Shown one piece after another: positions 35,975 to 46,763 of a stretch of DNA of 54,107 bases; within the stretch, counting starts at the first letter, position 1; each line of letters opens with the position of its first letter. The stretch lies in the NCBI GenBank assembly GCA_030537135.1, contig JAUNOP010000002.1, forward strand, positions 74,507 to 128,613, given 5' to 3'. The DNA comes from Eubacteriales bacterium. Lineage in GTDB: Bacteria; Bacillota; Clostridia; Lachnospirales; Lachnospiraceae. The notes under the pieces were generated by a model. It ran no database searches, was not told the origin of the DNA, and saw nothing but the letters and a program-made list of their open reading frames with translations. The position numbers and the translations under genes are program-made.

Positions 35975-36003
35975 TAAAATACTTTATAAAAAGATAAAAT
36001 AAC
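35975..36003. promoter_or_regulatory. Tandem TAAAATAA boxes before the GH51 gene
   Basis: TAAAATACT (35975-35983) and TAAAATAAC (35995-36003) are exactly 20 bp apart. The proximal one ends 2 bp before the -35. The sugar importer promoter at 41596-41624 has the same spacing and distance. Confidence 0.7.
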
Positions 36004-36005
36004 AG

Positions 36006-36033
36006 TTGATATTTTTTTATTTTCCGTTATAAT
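36006..36033 (+). promoter_or_regulatory. Promoter of the first GH51 gene
   Basis: TTGATA (36006-36011), 16 bases, TATAAT (36028-36033). Confidence 0.8.
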
Positions 36034-36071
36034 GGGCTATGAACATGTTTTTTGAGAAAAGGAGAAATAGT

Positions 36072-37574
36072 ATGGCAAAATTAGTCATTAATCCAGACAA
36101 AAAGCTAAGTAAAATTAATAAAGAAATTTATGGGCACTTTTCCGAGCATCTGGGAAGGTGTATTTATGAAGGAATTTATGTGGGAGAGGATTCGCCGATT
36201 CCGAATAAAAAGGGAATGCGTACAGATGTTGTAGAGGCGCTGAAAAAAATCAAGGTTCCTGTACTGCGCTGGCCGGGCGGCTGCTTTGCAGACGAATATC
36301 ACTGGATGGACGGAGTGGGACCAAAGGAAGGCCGCAAGAAGATGATTAACACAAACTGGGGCGGTGTTGTGGAAGACAACAGCTTTGGAACGCATGAATT
36401 CTTTGAGCTGTGCGAGCAGCTTGGATGCGAGGCCTATATCAATGGAAACCTTGGAAGCGGAACCGTTCAGGAAATGTCTGAGTGGGTAGAATACATGACC
36501 TTTGACGGGATTTCTCCTATGGCAGACTGGCGAGCAAAGAATGGTCATGAAAAGCCCTGGAAGGTGAAGTTCTTTGGTGTGGGTAATGAGAACTGGGGAT
36601 GCGGCGGCAACATGAATCCTGACTACTATGCGAACGAATACCGCAGATATCAGACCTATGTAAGAAATTATAATGAGGATGAGCCGATTTATAAAATCTG
36701 CTGCGGCCCGAATGTAGATGATTATGAGTGGACAGAGGGAGTTTTAAAGACTTGCTTCAGCCATTGTGAGGAGAAGTATCATGGATTTATGGATGGTCTC
36801 TCTTTGCATTATTATGTGCATCCAGAAGGCTGGGATATCAAAGGAAGCGCCACAGACTTTGACGAGAAGACATGGTATAAGACGCTCTTTAAGGCACTGT
36901 ATATGGAAGAACTGATTGTGCGCCATGGAAATCTCATGGATCAGTATGACCCAGACAAGAAGCTTGGAATGATAGTGGATGAGTGGGGAACCTGGTACAC
37001 GGTAGAGCCTGGAACAAATCCAGGATTTTTGTACCAGCAGAATACCATAAGGGACGCTCTGGTTGCCGGTGTGACACTAAATATTTTCAATAAGCACAGC
37101 GACCGGGTAAAGATGGCAAACCTTGCACAGATTGTGAATGTACTGCAGGCTGTGATTCTCACAGAGGGAGCAGACATGATTCTTACTCCTACCTATCATG
37201 TGTTTGATATGTATAAGGCTCATCAGGATGCAATGCTTCTTGACAGCTTTGTGGAGAGCCATGAAATCGGCGCAGACGATGAGTATTGTGTTCCAAACCT
37301 CAGTGAATCGGTATCCATGGATGCAGAGGGAGCGATTCATTTGACCTTGGCGAATTTGTCGGCCACAGAGAGCTACCCGATTGAGTCAATTATCTTTGAC
37401 TTTAAGGTAAAAGAGGCTGTCGGAGAAATCGTAACAGGAGAGATGCACGACAAAAACACCTTTGAGAATCCAGAGTGTGTAAAGGTTCAGAAATTTACAG
37501 ATGTAACAGTTACAGATGAGGGAGTGAATTTCACAATTCCTGCCTGCTCTGTTCTTCATCTGACAATCCGATAA
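36072..37574 (+). CDS. abfA: Alpha-N-arabinofuranosidase (GH51), first copy
   Basis: 500 residues from the ATG at 36072 (GGAG 7 bases before). No signal peptide, so it is cytoplasmic. The GH51 TIM barrel is clear: [37 protein letters not shown], acid/base Glu173 in GVGNENWG, and nucleophile Glu304 in [12 protein letters not shown]-terminal beta domain follows. It removes terminal L-arabinofuranose from imported arabino-oligosaccharides. It opens the arabinan locus, with a DUF6171 gene directly behind. The second GH51 at 45249 belongs to a clearly different subgroup, so the two likely split different linkages. Confidence 0.93.
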
Positions 37575-37602: not shown

Positions 37603-37863
37603 ATGAGTGAACACCTGCGAGTGTGCAGAAAGTGTCTTCTCAGAGAAGAGACACAAGAAGCATATTTTAAAAAACTGGATGTGTATATTGCAAATTTAAA
37701 TGAGGATGACAGGGTGGAACAGAAGGAGTATGAGTCTCGCCTTGCTGCATGTGCATCCTGCCCGCGCCTTGTGAAGGGTATGTGCCGTGTGTGCGGCTGC
37801 TTTGTGGAGCTGAGAGCAGCGCTGAGAGTGCAGAAATGCCCGGATATTCCCAGAAGATGGTAG
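37603..37863 (+). CDS. DUF6171 family cysteine-rich protein
   Basis: 86 residues with eight or more cysteines in pairs: VCRKCLLRE, CASCPRL, and MCRVCGCFVEL, plus a late QKC. This looks like a small zinc-ribbon-type or metal-binding protein, which I assign to DUF6171, an uncharacterised Lachnospiraceae family. It begins 28 bases after the GH51 stop and is likely co-transcribed. The ribosome site (GGAAG) is weak. Its link to arabinose use is only positional. Confidence 0.75.
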   Translation: MSEHLRVCRKCLLREETQEAYFKKLDVYIANLNEDDRVEQKEYESRLAACASCPRLVKGMCRVCGCFVELRAALRVQKCPDIPRRW

Positions 37864-38000: not shown

Positions 38001-38924
38001 TTAGCTGATGGAACTGTAATCTACCCGAACCTTTATGTCCTGATTGTAGTTTCCGAAATTTTTCCCAAACAGGGAGATTCCGCCTACATTTTTGGAAGGC
38101 TCCAGAACCTGAAAGCGAAAACAGAGACTGTCCTGCGAAGTGAGAAAAAGCTGTTTGGTTGAAACATTGGAGATCTTCAGTCCATCAATAAAGGTTCCCT
38201 TTCTGTTGAGAACCAGCATTTTCAGCAGGCCGTATTGATTCCAGTTGGGAAACCACCAGTCAGGAGTGAACATCCCGTGAATATCCCCGAAATCGCCGGG
38301 ACTGGTCCAGGTTCCAAGCTTATTGCCGTTGAGAAAAAATGTAATGTCTGAGGGCCAGTCAGAATTAACGCCTGGGGCTTCGCTTCCGATTTCAAAGGCA
38401 AAGGTAATCTGATCGATTTTCCGTCCGGGCGGAAGCATATTGGGAATGAGATACTCAATATAACCCTTACCGAACCACAGAATCTGCGCATCCACATGGC
38501 TGGGATGGGCAAAATATCGTGGGTCATCCACTTCTCCGATAAGCCGCTTTGGCGTGGATAGGCCGCAGGTAGGAAATACGGAAAAATTGGAATAATTACC
38601 GATTGGAATATCAATGGAATAGCTGTCCTGAGAGTCCTCATTTGTTTCGGATGCAACATCTACCAGGATTTTGTCCACATTCACGCGGCATACCTTCTGA
38701 TTGCCGTGACCGGAATGCTCGTTGAGAATTGCAACAATGCCGCTTTCTTCCAGCTTTTTTATGTGACTGGTCAGGGCGCCGTTTGTAATGCCAAGACAGG
38801 AAGCCAGTTCATTCATATTCATTTCTTTTTTTTCCAGCAAAAGCTGTATGACTTTAATGCGAAGTTCAGATCCCAGTGCTTTGAAAACAGGAATGGCCTC
38901 ATCAAGATTTTTGATATAGAGCAT
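38001..38924 (-). CDS. ArsR-like HTH regulator with large C-terminal domain, paralogue 1
   Basis: 307 residues from the ATG at 38924 (MLYIKNLDEAIPVFKALGSE), matching the start of its paralogue; the ATG three codons earlier abuts the GGGGG site. Residues about 12-75 are a winged-helix HTH: ELRIKVIQLLLEKKEMNMNELASCLGITNGALTSHIKKLEESG. Residues 105-305 form a separate, probably beta-sandwich domain with strong blocks shared with the second regulator: IPIGNYSNFSVFPTCGL, DDPRYFAHPSHVDAQILWF, FEIGSEAPG, WPSDITFFLNG, SPGDFGD and NQYGLLK. I do not know this domain; a ligand (sugar) sensor is inferred from the gene context. It is divergent from GH43. Confidence 0.8.
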   Translation of the reverse strand: MLYIKNLDEAIPVFKALGSELRIKVIQLLLEKKEMNMNELASCLGITNGALTSHIKKLEESGIVAILNEHSGHGNQKVCRVNVDKILVDVASETNEDSQDSYSIDIPIGNYSNFSVFPTCGLSTPKRLIGEVDDPRYFAHPSHVDAQILWFGKGYIEYLIPNMLPPGRKIDQITFAFEIGSEAPGVNSDWPSDITFFLNGNKLGTWTSPGDFGDIHGMFTPDWWFPNWNQYGLLKMLVLNRKGTFIDGLKISNVSTKQLFLTSQDSLCFRFQVLEPSKNVGGISLFGKNFGNYNQDIKVRVDYSSIS

Positions 38925-39034
38925 AGAAAACATCCCCCTTCATGCAATGGACGGCAATACAAATAAACTGTCTCATTGTGATTTACTTAATCAAATCAAT
39001 GCTACAGTGTATCAGAGGCCGCTTCAGTGCTTTC

Positions 39035-39063
39035 ATTATATACAATTCTGAGCCATTTCGCAA
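39035..39063 (-). promoter_or_regulatory. Promoter of regulator 1
   Basis: On the minus strand TTGCGA (39063-39058), 17 bases, TATAAT (39040-39035). Confidence 0.7.
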
Positions 39064-39089
39064 CTGAAAAATATAAAATCTCATAAAAA

Positions 39090-39205
39090 ACAAAATTATT
39101 TTAGATTTTTATTCACAAAGAAAATCATAAAATTCATAAGTTTTTCTTGCATCTTTATAGGAAATGCTTTATAATTTAATATATACAAAATTATTTTAGA
39201 TTTTT
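39090..39205. repeat. Pair of 21-bp direct repeats in the GH43 promoter
   Basis: Positions 39090-39110 and 39185-39205 are identical over 21 bases (ACAAAATTATTTTAG followed by ATTTTT). They start 95 bp apart, about nine helical turns. One lies upstream of the -35, the other just after the predicted start of transcription. The reverse complement contains CTAAAATAAT, also present in the importer promoter. Confidence 0.8.
39147..39175 (+). promoter_or_regulatory. Promoter of the GH43 gene
   Basis: TTGCAT (39147-39152), 17 bases, TATAAT (39170-39175). Confidence 0.8.
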
Positions 39206-39228
39206 GTAAAAATAAGAGAGGTATCAGG

Positions 39229-40191
39229 ATGAGTAGAGAAACAGAATTGAAGTACAATGAACCATGGATTCTGCAGCGCGCAGATCCCTATGTGTATAAG
39301 CACATTGACGGGACTTATTATTTCACAGCATCCATCCCTGCTTATGATGGAATCGTAATCCGTCATTCCAGCACGCTGGCTGGTCTTCCGGATGCTGAAG
39401 AGGTGGAAGTGTGGCATAAGCATGAAAAGGGAATCATGAGCAAGCATATATGGGCTCCGGAGATTCACTACCTGGATGGAAGGTGGTATATCTATTATTC
39501 AGGCGGAGACATTGATGATGAATGGGAAATCCGCCCTTATGTTCTGGAGTGCCAGGGGCAGGATCCGATGAAGGATCCCTGGGTGGAGAGAGGCAAAATG
39601 GTCAGAGCAGAGGGAGATGTATTTTCCTTTGAGGCCTTTTCTCTGGATGCGACTGTTTTTGAAAATAAAGGAAAGCATTATTATGTATGGGCAGAGAAGG
39701 TGAGTGTATATCCTCAGATATCCAATCTGTATATTGCCGAAATGGAGAATCCATGCAAGCTGAAAACTGTTCAGGTAATGCTGACAACGCCGGACTATGA
39801 CTGGGAGAGAGTTGGCTTCTGGGTAGATGAAGGTCCGGCAGTGATTAAGCATAATGGGAAGATTTATCTGACCTTCTCTGCGTCAGAGACCGGCGTCCAT
39901 TATTGCATGGGTATGCTGACAGCAGATGAGGATGCAGATCTTCTGGATCCCAAGTCCTGGGACAAGGATCGTTATCCGGTTCTTAAGACGGATGCGTCCA
40001 GGGGCATTTATGGTCCAGGGCATAATTGCTTTACACAGGATGAGGATGGCAATCCTCTGATGGTATATCATGCCAGAACAGAGGAGAAGATAGAAGGGAA
40101 TCCTCTTTACAATCCGAACCGCCATGCTATGCTCATGAAGATTCGTTTTGATGAGAAGACGGGAAGACCGATTTTCTCTTATGATGAATAA
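39229..40191 (+). CDS. GH43 family arabinosidase
   Basis: 320 residues; five-bladed beta-propeller hydrolase. The three acidic catalytic residues are visible: Asp in LQRADPYVYKHIDGTYYFTAS (near residue 18), Asp in AFSLDATVFENKGKHYYVWAE, and Glu in FWVDEGPAVIKHNGK. HIWAPEIHYLDGRWYIYYSGG is a standard blade motif. No signal peptide, so it acts on imported oligosaccharides. It likely removes arabinose from arabinan or arabinoxylan oligomers; the subfamily cannot be fixed by eye. It is a single gene divergent from regulator 1 and ends at a long hairpin. Confidence 0.9.
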   Translation: MSRETELKYNEPWILQRADPYVYKHIDGTYYFTASIPAYDGIVIRHSSTLAGLPDAEEVEVWHKHEKGIMSKHIWAPEIHYLDGRWYIYYSGGDIDDEWEIRPYVLECQGQDPMKDPWVERGKMVRAEGDVFSFEAFSLDATVFENKGKHYYVWAEKVSVYPQISNLYIAEMENPCKLKTVQVMLTTPDYDWERVGFWVDEGPAVIKHNGKIYLTFSASETGVHYCMGMLTADEDADLLDPKSWDKDRYPVLKTDASRGIYGPGHNCFTQDEDGNPLMVYHARTEEKIEGNPLYNPNRHAMLMKIRFDEKTGRPIFSYDE

Positions 40192-40240
40192 GACCAGAAT
40201 AAATTTGTAAGTCAGATTCCATTTGTGGGTTTTTACATCA

Positions 40241-40326
40241 GGCTCCTGCATTTTCGGAAAAAAGCACAGGGCTGTCTGCCGGAATGAGGACAGCTCTGGC
40301 GCTGTGCCGAAAAGCAGGAGCCTTTT
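40241..40326 (+). terminator. Long imperfect hairpin/terminator after GH43
   Basis: GGCTCCTGC (40241-40249) pairs with GCAGGAGCC (40314-40322); inside, TTTTCGG/CCGAAAA, GCACAG/CTGTGC and GCTGTC/GACAGC continue the stem. TTTT follows. It is much longer than an ordinary terminator. Confidence 0.75.
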
Positions 40327-40416
40327 GCGCACAATAAAACCATCATGCATCTGGCGCGTACAGACTTTTAACGTATCAAGCAAGTAGCGAAAGCGAATTG
40401 CGAATTTCCGCTTGAC
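40327..40416. repeat. REP-like repeat, copy D, with flanking composite sequence
   Basis: AACGTATCAAGCAAG (40370-40384) is followed by TAGCGAAAGCGAATTGCGAA and TTTCCGCTTGAC. The preceding TTTTGCGC...ATAAAACC...TCATGC resembles the sequence after the ilvC and DUF3783 terminators. Confidence 0.7.
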
Positions 40417-40473
40417 TAGTCAGGTACAGCGAGCAGACAAAATGTGTGGGCTCTAGTCTGTCCGGCTGCTTTG

Positions 40474-41430
40474 TCAGACAAGAGGAGGGTGTACAGGAAG
40501 CATGCTATCCAGCTTTTCCTTGGAATCATAGTGAATAGAAAGCAGGATGTGCTGATCATGGTTTCCAAAACCCCGTCCATACAAGGTAAGTCCCCGCGGA
40601 TTATCGGAGTTTGGGAAGACAGTCATTCTAAAGCGCAGAATGGACTGGTCTGTGAGTGCAAAATCCTGAATGGTCATTGGGGAAAGCTGAACACTGTCTA
40701 TCCAGGTTCCGTTCTCGTCAATCGTGATTTTCTTTAGCAGACCATATTGATTGATAAAGGAATACCACCATTTGGGATTGAGCTCTCCAGGCTTGTCCCC
40801 GAAGTCTCCGGGGCTGACCCATTTGCCCAAAGGAATTCCATTCAGGAAAAAGGAAATGTCAGAGGGCCATTGGTTATTGTATTTGGGCGCCTCTGAGGAA
40901 ATCTCAAAGGACAGGGAGAGCTTGGTGATTCTGCTCTGCCTGGGAATCAGGTTTGGAAGAATATATTCTACATATCCTGTGGTGAACCACAAAATTCCTG
41001 CCTGATAACGATTGGGATGCGCAAAATAGCGCGGCTCGTCCAATCTGCCAAGAAAGGAGGTGGAGGCGGCAAGCCCACAGGTGGGAGTTACGGAGAAATC
41101 ACTGTAATTGCCAATAGGGATTTCTGCCTGATACACAGGCACTGTGTTGCTCCGAACATCAAAATCAATATAAATCTGATCCAGAGAGGTGTAGCACAGC
41201 TTTTGAAGACCGTGCGAGGCAGGGATATCGTGAAAGGTGATGAGCCCACATTCCTTCAGCTTATTAATGTGGGGACTTAAGGTACTCATCGGAATATTTA
41301 AGATATCAGATATTTGCTTTACATTCAGTCCGGGAGTAGAGGATAAAAGCTTAATAATATCCACTCTCACCTCTGAACTCAAAGCCTGAAAAACAGGCAG
41401 ATTAGCATTCAGAGACTTAATATATATCAT
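40474..41430 (-). CDS. ArsR-like HTH regulator with large C-terminal domain, paralogue 2
   Basis: 318 residues. HTH at about 10-75: LSSEVRVDIIKLLSSTPGLNVKQISDILNIPMSTLSPHINKLKECG. Residues 100-305 repeat the domain of paralogue 1: IPIGNYSDFSVTPTCGL, DEPRYFAHPNRYQAGILWF, FEISSEAPK, WPSDISFFLNG, WVSPGDFGDKPGELNPKWW and NQYGLLK. Aromatic residues in these blocks would suit a sugar-binding face, which is inference. GGAGG lies before the ATG. It is divergent from the sugar importer genes and is their likely regulator. The known family is only ArsR-like for the HTH; I cannot name the sensor domain. Confidence 0.82.
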   Translation of the reverse strand: MIYIKSLNANLPVFQALSSEVRVDIIKLLSSTPGLNVKQISDILNIPMSTLSPHINKLKECGLITFHDIPASHGLQKLCYTSLDQIYIDFDVRSNTVPVYQAEIPIGNYSDFSVTPTCGLAASTSFLGRLDEPRYFAHPNRYQAGILWFTTGYVEYILPNLIPRQSRITKLSLSFEISSEAPKYNNQWPSDISFFLNGIPLGKWVSPGDFGDKPGELNPKWWYSFINQYGLLKKITIDENGTWIDSVQLSPMTIQDFALTDQSILRFRMTVFPNSDNPRGLTLYGRGFGNHDQHILLSIHYDSKEKLDSMLPVHPPLV

Positions 41431-41503
41431 GAAAATGCCTCCTTTTCTGTCGGGTATAGGTAAAGAATTTTGTTTTTGATTTTCACGAAATAGTATAATT
41501 TAC

Positions 41504-41531
41504 ATTATAGTAAAATGTACGAAAAAGTCAA
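41504..41531 (-). promoter_or_regulatory. Promoter of regulator 2
   Basis: On the minus strand TTGACT (41531-41526), 16 bases, TATAAT (41509-41504). Confidence 0.75.
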
Positions 41532-41595
41532 TAAAAAAGCTACTTTACAGGACATTTTGACGATGGGAAAAACAGGAATTTATTTTAATAAACAC

Positions 41596-41624
41596 TAAAA
41601 TAATAAAAAAAAGTTTAAAATAAT
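41596..41624. promoter_or_regulatory. Tandem TAAAATAAT boxes before the sugar importer
   Basis: TAAAATAAT at 41596-41604 and 41616-41624, exactly 20 bp apart; the second ends 2 bp before the -35. This is the same geometry as 35975-36003. Confidence 0.72.
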
Positions 41625-41626
41625 TC

Positions 41627-41655
41627 TTGACAAAATCGAAATAGGATTGTACAAT
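41627..41655 (+). promoter_or_regulatory. Promoter of the sugar importer operon
   Basis: TTGACA (41627-41632), 17 bases, TACAAT (41650-41655). Transcription should start near 41662, giving a leader of about 155 bases. Confidence 0.82.
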
Positions 41656-41818: not shown

Positions 41819-43183
41819 ATGAAGAAAAAATGGCTGGCACTTTTAATGTGTGGAGCAATGGCAGCATCTATGGGCGTAAGCGTATACGCAGATGAGGAAG
41901 CTGATGCAGCCGAGGCAGAGGCAACTGCTGTTACTACTGTAGGACCAGAGGATGGAACACATTTTGAGCTGTGGACATTCGTAGACTTACATAATGAGTT
42001 CTACGCAAAGATGGTTGAGGAGTGGAACGAGCTGAACCCAGACAAACAGCTTAATGTTACCTTCAGTACTTATCCATATGGAGATATGCACAACAAGCTG
42101 ATGATGTCCCTGCAGGCAGGCTCAGGAGCTCCTGACATCTGCGATATCGAGATCGGACAGTTCCCGAACTACACAGGCGTTGACTGCCCTCTGTACGACC
42201 TGACAGACGCTCTGGCTCCATATGAAGACACAATGGTTCAGTCAAGACTTGATGTATATTCCAAGGAAGACGGTACCAGAGTTGGTGTTCCGACACACGT
42301 TGGTGCTACTGTTATGTACTGGAATGCAGAGATTTTTGAAGAGTATGGTCTGGATTACAAGTCTGTAAAGACATGGGACGACTATACCGCACTCGGCGAG
42401 CAGCTGAAGGAAGCCTCCAACGGCGAAGTATATCTGACATCTGTAGATACCGGCGGTGTTGACTGGATGTGGATTGCTATGGCTGAGTATGGCGAGGACT
42501 GGACAGGCGGCCCTGGCGGAACCCCGAACGTACAGCTGGAGTCTGTTGAGAAGATGATGACCATGCAGCAGCAGTGGCTGAACGATGGAATCGCGATGAT
42601 TTCCACAGACGGACATACTGATACAGACGGATGCCGTGTTCCGATTTCTGAAGGCAAGATTGCTTCCTTCCCGAAGGCCATGTGGTACATGAGCCGTTTC
42701 ACAGGCTATGAAGCTATGAAGACCTTGGAAGGCAAGTTTGACATTACTACAGTTCCTGTATTTGAGGAAGGCCAGAAGTGCTCTGTAGGTATTGGCGGTA
42801 CTGGTACTGTTGTTACAAACGAGTGCGAGAATCCTGAGTTGGCAGCAGAGTGGCTGGCATGGGCAAAATGCTCACCAGAAGGTGAAGCTCACATCTGGGC
42901 AGACCTTGGATTTGATGTCTGCAACACAGCTCTGTGGTCTGATGAAGAGTTTGCTTATGATGAATCCAATATTTACAATACCTTCTTCCGCGTAAAGCCA
43001 TATGAGGTTCTGAACGAGCTGGCTGAGGCAGACGCTATCGGTACTGTATATACAACATCTGCATCTCCGACAATCAACGACTATATGTGTACCACAACTC
43101 TGAACTATGTGTTTGAGGATGGCATGGATGTAGCTGAGGCTCTTCAGGATGCTCAGGACTACATTGATATGGAACTTAGCTAA
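41819..43183 (+). CDS. Sugar ABC transporter substrate-binding protein
   Basis: 454 residues. Residues 1-24 are a signal peptide ending VYA before DEEADAAEAE; Cys11 is not in a proper lipobox, so lipid anchoring is doubtful. The mature protein is a family-1 solute-binding protein (FELWTFVDLHNEFYAKMVEEWNE, MMSLQAGSGAPDICDIEIGQF, VPTHVGATVMYWNAEIFEEYGL, KTWDDYTALGEQL, MWYMSRFTGYEAMK). The position between two permease genes and GH51 enzymes suggests arabino-oligosaccharides, like AraN. Very strong AAAGGAGG ribosome site. A hairpin follows before the permease genes. Confidence 0.9.
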   Translation: MKKKWLALLMCGAMAASMGVSVYADEEADAAEAEATAVTTVGPEDGTHFELWTFVDLHNEFYAKMVEEWNELNPDKQLNVTFSTYPYGDMHNKLMMSLQAGSGAPDICDIEIGQFPNYTGVDCPLYDLTDALAPYEDTMVQSRLDVYSKEDGTRVGVPTHVGATVMYWNAEIFEEYGLDYKSVKTWDDYTALGEQLKEASNGEVYLTSVDTGGVDWMWIAMAEYGEDWTGGPGGTPNVQLESVEKMMTMQQQWLNDGIAMISTDGHTDTDGCRVPISEGKIASFPKAMWYMSRFTGYEAMKTLEGKFDITTVPVFEEGQKCSVGIGGTGTVVTNECENPELAAEWLAWAKCSPEGEAHIWADLGFDVCNTALWSDEEFAYDESNIYNTFFRVKPYEVLNELAEADAIGTVYTTSASPTINDYMCTTTLNYVFEDGMDVAEALQDAQDYIDMELS

Positions 43184-43318: not shown

Positions 43319-44224
43319 GTGAACAAGGCGAAAAAGTTATTGTATTCCCAGAAAGTTGCACCGTATGTGTTTGTGCTTCCCTTTGTTTTGAGTTTGTTGA
43401 TTTTCTGGCTGTATCCGCTGATCAGCGGTATTGTCATGAGCTTCCAGGAGGTTTCCTTTGGGGGAAAGACCTTTGTAGGAATGACAAACTATCAGAAGCT
43501 TGCCGGAGATAAATTCTTCTCCACAGCCGTAAAAAACAGTGTTGAGTATATGATTCTTACATTGATTCTTATGATTCCGATTCCTATGGTTCTTGCAGTT
43601 CTGATGGAAAGCCGTCTGACAAAGGCAAGAGGCGTATGGAAGGTTATCATGTATGTTCCGGCTCTGACTTCTGTAGTTATTTCTGGTTTGATGTTCCGTT
43701 TGATGTTCTCTGAGGGCGACAATGGTCAGATGAACGTATTGTTACATATGTTTGGTCAGCCCAGCTTTGCATGGCTGAAGACAAAGTCCACTGCCTGGTG
43801 CGCGCTGCTTCTTCTGTGTCTGTGGAGATGGACAGGAGTAAACATGCTGTACTTTATATCTGGTCTGAAGGCTATTGATACCTCTCTCTATGAGTCAGCA
43901 AGTATTGACGGAGCAAACTCCAAGCAGCAGTTCTGGTATATCACACTTCCGCTTTTGAAACCAACAACCATTTATGTGCTTACAATTTCCGTATTCGCAG
44001 GCTTGTCCATGTTCCTTGAGAGCTTTATGCTGTGGAATGGCAACTCCTCGCCAAAGAATATCGGTTTGACCATTGTAGGTTATCTATATAAGCGAGGTAT
44101 TGAGAAAAACGATATGGGTTATGCCTGTGCAGTTGGTGTGGTTCTGATGATCATCGCTCTGATTATCAACTTTATCCAGCTTTTTGCTACTGGCACAATG
44201 AGCTTCAAGAAGAAGGAGGATTAG
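43319..44224 (+). CDS. Sugar ABC transporter permease (AraP-like)
   Basis: 301 residues from GTG behind AAAGGAGG. Six membrane segments can be drawn, starting at YVFVLPFVLSLLIFWLYPL. The coupling loop ESASIDGANSKQQFWYITLPLLKP is the EAA motif that contacts the ATPase. It is a MalF/UgpA-type subunit and pairs with the next gene. No ATPase gene is in the locus, so a shared MsmX-type ATPase is likely. Confidence 0.92.
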   Translation: MNKAKKLLYSQKVAPYVFVLPFVLSLLIFWLYPLISGIVMSFQEVSFGGKTFVGMTNYQKLAGDKFFSTAVKNSVEYMILTLILMIPIPMVLAVLMESRLTKARGVWKVIMYVPALTSVVISGLMFRLMFSEGDNGQMNVLLHMFGQPSFAWLKTKSTAWCALLLLCLWRWTGVNMLYFISGLKAIDTSLYESASIDGANSKQQFWYITLPLLKPTTIYVLTISVFAGLSMFLESFMLWNGNSSPKNIGLTIVGYLYKRGIEKNDMGYACAVGVVLMIIALIINFIQLFATGTMSFKKKED

Positions 44225-44228
44225 TGAT

Positions 44229-45131
44229 ATGGCAGCGAATACTCCAAAACAGAAAACAATGGAATCCAATCATAAGGTGGGAACCTTTTTATCTACAGGC
44301 TTGTTTGTGATTGTGTGTGGCTTTATTGCCTTTCCTCTGGTTGCAGGCTTTCTCGGTTCCTTCCGTCCAGGTTCAGAGGTCGTGACAAAGGGTCTGTCTC
44401 TTGACTTTAAGTCACCGCTCAGCCTGAACAATTATAAGTACCTCTTTGCAATGTTTAATCCGAACAATAAGGACCAGACAGCTCTGGTAGACTCCAGAAA
44501 ATATTTTATGTGGTATAAGAACAGTCTGGTTCTGACCATTACGACTGTAATTTTAACCCTTTTGGTCTGCTACTTTATTGCCTATGGTCTGACCATGTAC
44601 AAGTTCAAGCTTGGCGGATTTTTGTTCTTCATGGTTATTGCAACAATGTCCGTACCATTTGAAATCCTGATGCTTCCTCTGTACCAGGAGATCACGGTTC
44701 TTGGAATTATCAACTCCAATGCAGGTGTTATTCTGCCGGGACTATGTGCGGCCGGAACGATATTCTTCTTCCGACAATACATGACGACTCTTCCAAAAGA
44801 GCTTCTGGATGCTGCCCGTGTTGACGGCTGTACAGAGTATGGTATCAGCGTAAAGATTATGATGCCGATTACAAAACCGGCTTTTGCTTCTCAGGCAATC
44901 ATGTGCGCAATGGGTTCCTGGAACAATATGCTGTGGCCGATGATGGTGTTCCGTGATACAAGCAAGTTTACCCTTCAGATTGGTCTGAATACATTATTAA
45001 CTCCATATGGAAACAACTATGATTTGCTGATTGCAGGTTCTATGTTTGGTATTCTTCCAATCCTGGTTATCTATTTGATTTTTAATAGATATCTGGTTGA
45101 TGGTATGACGTCTGGTGCTGTAAAGGGTTAA
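44229..45131 (+). CDS. Carbohydrate ABC transporter permease (AraQ-like)
   Basis: 300 residues, MalG/UgpE type. A first membrane segment at about 20-40 (STGLFVIVCGFIAFPLVAGFLG) is followed by five more, and the EAA loop is DAARVDGCTEYGISVKIMMPITKPA. It begins 4 bases after the upstream permease stop. With that protein it forms the channel for arabino-oligosaccharides or a related sugar. Confidence 0.92.
   Translation: MAANTPKQKTMESNHKVGTFLSTGLFVIVCGFIAFPLVAGFLGSFRPGSEVVTKGLSLDFKSPLSLNNYKYLFAMFNPNNKDQTALVDSRKYFMWYKNSLVLTITTVILTLLVCYFIAYGLTMYKFKLGGFLFFMVIATMSVPFEILMLPLYQEITVLGIINSNAGVILPGLCAAGTIFFFRQYMTTLPKELLDAARVDGCTEYGISVKIMMPITKPAFASQAIMCAMGSWNNMLWPMMVFRDTSKFTLQIGLNTLLTPYGNNYDLLIAGSMFGILPILVIYLIFNRYLVDGMTSGAVKG

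Positions 45132-45168: not shown

Positions 45169-46763
<1,595 letters not shown>

Follow-up and report, generated by a model that had tools for sequence, protein, structure and literature searches.

We analyzed a 54,107-nucleotide stretch of a Lachnospiraceae genome (the window) in which two genes, regA and regB, encode proteins that join an ArsR-type winged helix to a long C-terminal domain (CTD). An earlier reading of the sequence (the original prediction) had proposed paired ArsR-like open reading frames (ORFs) in 38001..41430, and two minus-strand paralogues indeed span this range, with 45% identity over 305 residues (E 3e-103) and with the conserved blocks quoted in that prediction present in both translations. 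Fold and profile comparisons confirmed the short ArsR-type winged-helix helix-turn-helix assigned to them, placing both proteins in ArsR/SmtB by this feature, and the predicted divergent arrangement was also found, with a GH43 gene opposite regB and an importer operon opposite regA (Table 1). The regB homologues begin at the ATG at 38924; the start in the ORF list adds three residues, and this comparison suggests that 38924 is the true start. The labels GH51 and ‘CUT1-type’ are assigned from the Pfam domains.

Table 1. Genes, domains and predicted sites at the regA/regB locus (window coordinates)
Feature	Coordinates	Strand	Remarks
Second alpha-L-arabinofuranosidase (GH51-type)	36039..37574	+	predicted target
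regB	38001..38933	-	310 aa; ArsR-type winged helix and C-terminal jelly-roll domain
regB CTD	38013..38627	-	not covered by any Pfam/NCBIfam family at E ≤ 1
GH43 enzyme gene	39229..40191	+	divergent from regB; predicted target
regA	40474..41430	-	318 aa; regB paralogue, divergent from importer operon
regA CTD (residues 98-302)	40525..41139	-	modelled alone, pLDDT 94.4
Solute-binding protein (SBP_bac_1) of importer	41819..43183	+	divergent from regA; predicted target
Importer permease A	43319..44224	+	
Importer permease B	44229..45131	+	
Alpha-L-arabinofuranosidase (GH51-type)	45198..46763	+	last listed gene of importer operon
Predicted operator, 36039 arabinofuranosidase promoter	35981..36002	+	best match in window; promoter in neither training set
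Half-site TTATTTTAGATTTTT, second copy, regB-GH43 gap	39096..39117	-	
Predicted operator before GH43 gene	39191..39214	+	15 bp downstream of TATAAT (39170-39175)
Weaker operator-like site	41494..41515	+	overlaps TATAAT (41504-41509, minus strand) of regA promoter-like site
Predicted operator, regA-importer gap	41580..41603	+	1 mismatch to TTATTTTAGN6CTAAAATAA

The winged helix and the C-terminal domain

In searches at E ≤ 1, the Pfam rows for regA and regB ended by residue 91 with none over the CTD, and the NCBIfam rows (for regB, the best 25 of 26) covered the N-terminal part only, with weak ones extending to residues 99, 102 and 118. Among PDB sequences, the matches to regA stopped by residue 89, and a CTD profile returned two rows only (E 0.4 and 0.53). 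When the CTD alone was compared with Pfam at E ≤ 1, 23 of 24 homologues had no match and the remaining one matched DUF7424 (E 0.2). The Pfam and NCBIfam searches uphold the claim that the C-terminal domain is unassigned.

The original prediction had called for a comparison of the predicted structure with carbohydrate-binding module (CBM) and jelly-roll folds, and the modelled CTD has a CBM-like jelly-roll fold. It shares this fold with CBM6, CBM35 and CBM36, but is about 80 residues longer and without sequence match to them (no CBM family at E ≤ 1 for 24 members); those are modules of secreted enzymes, whereas the CTD would be the effector domain of a regulator. Homology to CBM6 by profiles was tried and rejected (hhalign probability 0.2, only 4 CBM6 rows). 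Of the all-beta sugar-sensing module originally proposed, the all-beta, CBM-like fold is thus supported, while sugar binding stays a prediction. The structural model supports a divergent CBM-like jelly roll of ~205 residues, which we predict to bind a glycan.

The ArsR/SmtB metal site is a Cys pair in alpha3, which we take to fall at positions 33–42 of these proteins. Metalloregulators are frequent among the top winged-helix models and PDB folds, which favors regA and regB being ordinary ArsR/SmtB metal sensors that adjoin sugar genes by chance. However, across 95 aligned sequences Cys is never the commonest residue at positions 33–42, neither regA nor regB has a Cys there, and both score below the cut-off of NCBIfam NF033788 (44.7 and 43.8 vs 55 bits). 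Compared to the metalloregulators CadC, CzrA and ArsR, the two proteins carry an extra 205-residue CTD, lack the alpha3 Cys pair and sit in a glycan gene context. The linkage to glycan genes also recurs across phyla, as described below, and we regard the metal-sensor explanation as very improbable.

In the same 95 sequences, conservation is higher in the CTD than in the winged helix (mean majority 0.60 vs 0.50), Cys118 is invariant when gapped rows are excluded, and Cys79 is identical in 89%. Trp148, Glu176, Glu180 and Asp209 are also highly conserved. The two cysteines would fit a mechanism in which the proteins regulate these genes while the CTD is a platform for dimer or oligomer formation or for polymerase contact, the signal being redox or another regulator's. 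Jelly rolls also mediate protein contacts, and a CTD protein without the winged helix exists, both in favor of such a platform. The identified neighbors of the homologues are nevertheless mostly glycan genes and vary by clade, which suggests differing glycan specificity, and we judge a non-sensing CTD to be unlikely.

The domain can stand outside a regulator, because genome G273 carries a CTD-like domain within a 710-residue ORF (L082:184-2316) that lacks any Pfam match and begins with what looks by eye like a lipoprotein signal; of the 63 genomes in its class, G273 alone has it. The ORF may represent a form of the domain located outside the cell.

A candidate operator

We performed an expectation-maximization (EM) motif search on 76 of 86 upstream regions, after dropping those sharing 11-mers and omitting the first 20 bases of the regions. 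The search returned ATTTTAGAAAAA.CTAAAATAA with a fitted fraction of 0.68 and a log-likelihood ratio of 244.8, compared to 86.7–109.4 in ten shuffles. With those 20 bases included, widths 14 and 18 caught the ribosome-binding site or GC-rich stretches, which are artefacts, and at width 24 the search converged on a GC-rich pattern, not on the palindrome. A held-out motif, fitted to 74 regions without the window, was then scored on both strands of the whole window. The highest score, 22.3, fell at the 36039 arabinofuranosidase promoter, followed by 21.9 at the GH43 promoter and 16.1 in the importer gap, while none of 40 simulated windows scored as high as 20 and their largest maximum was 17.6. 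The sequence data support a shared candidate operator common to the window's target promoters, and the weaker site upstream of regA may reflect autoregulation.

The window's own genome contains two matches to the strict pattern at up to one mismatch, one in the importer gap and the other 238 bp upstream of an outlying GH43 gene with a signal-peptide-like start. Allowing three mismatches adds the site before the window's GH43 gene, one located 110 bp ahead of an arabinofuranosidase gene whose start is signal-peptide-like, one 49 bp upstream of uxuA, one in the gap that separates glyA from a thioredoxin reductase-like gene (by eye), and three intragenic positions. The uxuA site (L145 1501-1524, own genome C7:10773-10796) may be chance.

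Across 61 relatives, at most one mismatch was found at 8 sites in 6 genomes, compared to 6 sites in 6 genomes for a control pattern. Genomes with sites made up 4 of the 15 that carry the CTD and 2 of the 46 others; for the control pattern, these counts were 1 of 15 and 5 of 46. Each of the 6 sites in CTD genomes stands by a regulator or an arabinan-type enzyme, although for four of them the region itself or a near copy had been used in training. The remaining two lie before the outlying GH43 gene and, in genome G023, 20 bp before the called start of an arabinofuranosidase gene. The importer-gap site is within chance on its own, because its score falls below the simulated maximum, and the three-mismatch sites count little, because there are 9 compared to 6 with the control pattern.

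Farther afield, the best match at the S. meliloti locus (12.7) ends 22 bp before the arabinofuranosidase start, while no operator score exceeded 4.3 at the Sinorhizobium sp. B11 locus. As the latter and the other scanned plasmid loci score poorly, we do not claim the operator in other phyla.

The positions of the sites bear on the direction of control. The predicted operator at the 36039 arabinofuranosidase promoter ends 3 bp before a promoter-like -35 hexamer at 36006, and that in the importer gap ends 23 bp before one at 41627, as if the same sensor were an activator or dual regulator of these two promoters, binding just upstream of -35. Conversely, the site before the GH43 gene is downstream of a TATAAT, the G023 site ends close to the called start, and the passages of PMC8579813 infer repression by the ArsR-family protein ArbA from mapped start sites. 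We prefer repression and regard activation as unlikely. The listed start of the 36039 arabinofuranosidase is 6 bp past a promoter-like TATAAT, and an inner ATG (MAKLV...) is more likely its start.

Neighborhoods and distribution of the homologues

We tabulated the neighbors of 81 regulators, setting aside 6 at contig edges; the gene calls were mechanical and include some shadow frames. A divergent upstream neighbor was present for 61 of the remaining 75, comprising 21 solute-binding proteins (SBPs), 13 arabinofuranosidases, 9 GH43 enzymes and 18 unlabelled genes. A scan of 12 of the latter found GH43 in six, GH2 in two, SBP in two, a HAD hydrolase in one and no family in one. A relative of the window's GH43, arabinofuranosidase, SBP or permease genes lay within 1.6 kb on either side at 52 of 75 loci with complete flanks and at 8 of 12 CTD loci with cut flanks, compared to none of 15 control loci (ArsR winged helix, no CTD), which come from genomes other than most CTD loci's. 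The neighborhood survey that the original prediction had proposed thus found linkage to arabinan or other glycan genes recurring in three phyla.

Carbohydrate genes were annotated beside or near the regulator in 8 of nine plasmid regions that we chose from 260 and 259 records. Four of the nine have an arabinofuranosidase (S. meliloti pSymB, Sinorhizobium sp. B11, R. leguminosarum and R. tumorigenes) and two a GH43 gene. The sole region without annotated carbohydrate neighbors is from E. faecalis, where the plasmid member (strain VRE-WC031, L158:7716-8606) is near IS1216 and NAD-salvage genes. A tenth region, with a weak two-piece match, has zero annotated genes at the match.

One scan of genome contigs yielded 26 loci. 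Among the 61 relatives, 15 have a match at E < 1e-70, 12 of them within the 37 genomes of the window's genus, while in the other 30 matching genomes the similarity is mainly in the winged helix. The CTD is present in 24 of 398 genomes of the phylum, five of which carry 4 to 7 copies, and in 260 of 72,556 plasmid records (Rhizobium 149, Sinorhizobium 68, Deinococcus 6, Enterococcus 6), the Rhizobium and Sinorhizobium records including many related strains. Viral contigs gave 4 pattern stretches and zero relatives. COG4189 was considered as a possible COG for the family but not used: the term turned up for one paper, whose main text does not contain it.

We built a tree of the 95 sequences that were left when 103 matching frames had been filtered by length, score and identity. 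It puts regA and regB into two distinct supported clades, one of 15 rows (100/100) and one of 12 (100/99), and several Lachnospiraceae loci carry both kinds together. Seven CTD copies occur in the large genome G082 of family f56 (L101-L106), several adjoining arabinofuranosidase, GH43 or GH2 genes.

Proposed mechanism and relation to known regulators

We consider it probable that regA and regB are one-component, glycan-responsive repressors. The N-terminal winged helix would bind as a dimer to the palindrome TTATTTTAG-N6-CTAAAATAA, a proposal drawn from the conserved sequence, and the cytoplasmic ligand of the CTD would be L-arabinose or an oligosaccharide derived from arabinan. In its ligand-free state the protein would occupy or adjoin three promoters, those of the GH43 gene, of the importer operon and of the second arabinofuranosidase gene, keeping them repressed until ligand binding released it from the DNA. 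RegB would act mainly on the GH43 side and regA on the importer side, with probable cross-talk through the shared operator. Most likely, the homologues turn on adjoining arabinan-digestion genes when plant arabinose chains arrive.

AraR is a GntR-family repressor of arabinose and arabinan genes that works alike, with DNA-binding and effector domains that differ from those of regA and regB. A closer counterpart comes from genome G238. Its GH48 domain and PDB 4l0g, which we take to be CelA of C. bescii, are identical over 638 residues. The single CTD match in G238 is 55% identical to regB (residues 4–309), belongs to the same 58-row clade as regA and regB, and has an arabinofuranosidase gene as its divergent neighbor. 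The regA/regB family shares this layout of divergent arabinofuranosidase or arabinan genes, and has conserved sites in the intervening gaps. In the passages of PMC8579813, which also name AraR, ArbA is predicted to repress the arabinofuranosidase gene abfA in Caldicellulosiruptor, in the same divergent layout. Because the G238 match mirrors the arbA-abfA arrangement, ArbA of Caldicellulosiruptor bescii very probably belongs to the regA/regB family, and the class was thus foreseen for one genus. The window differs in having two paralogues and three candidate target promoters, the importer's included.

The original prediction of an undescribed sensor class is thus partly supported: our searches of the open-access literature and the ArbA passages of PMC8579813 gave no description of the CTD, but the class is not fully new, since those passages already name ArbA as an ArsR-family regulator. 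Passages of PMC4428132 and PMC4855831 place ArsR genes by the arabinose clusters of Geobacillus and L. rossiae, while those of PMC11575207, PMC3616900 and PMC4765114 contain no ArsR-type sugar regulator.

More broadly, and with confidence only somewhat better than even, we propose that a CBM-type jelly roll was internalised as an ArsR effector, giving a large unrecognised class of glycan sensors in Bacillota, Alphaproteobacteria and Deinococcota. Its paralogues would differ in the plant-wall oligosaccharides that they sense (arabinan, xylan, GH2 substrates), and many Bacillota members would keep one operator of the TTATTTTAG-N6-CTAAAATAA type. If so, proteins of gut, soil and root-nodule bacteria that are filed as ‘ArsR family’, and so readily taken for metal sensors, would be relabelled as regulators that respond to glycans. 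The CTD would then define a sensory domain family of its own, new, with a ligand that can be tested and an operator already at hand, of use in predicting plant-fibre regulons and in arabino-oligosaccharide biosensors.

Elsewhere in the window, a Cys-rich ORF of 86 aa (37603-37863, plus strand) lies between the 36039 arabinofuranosidase gene and regB.
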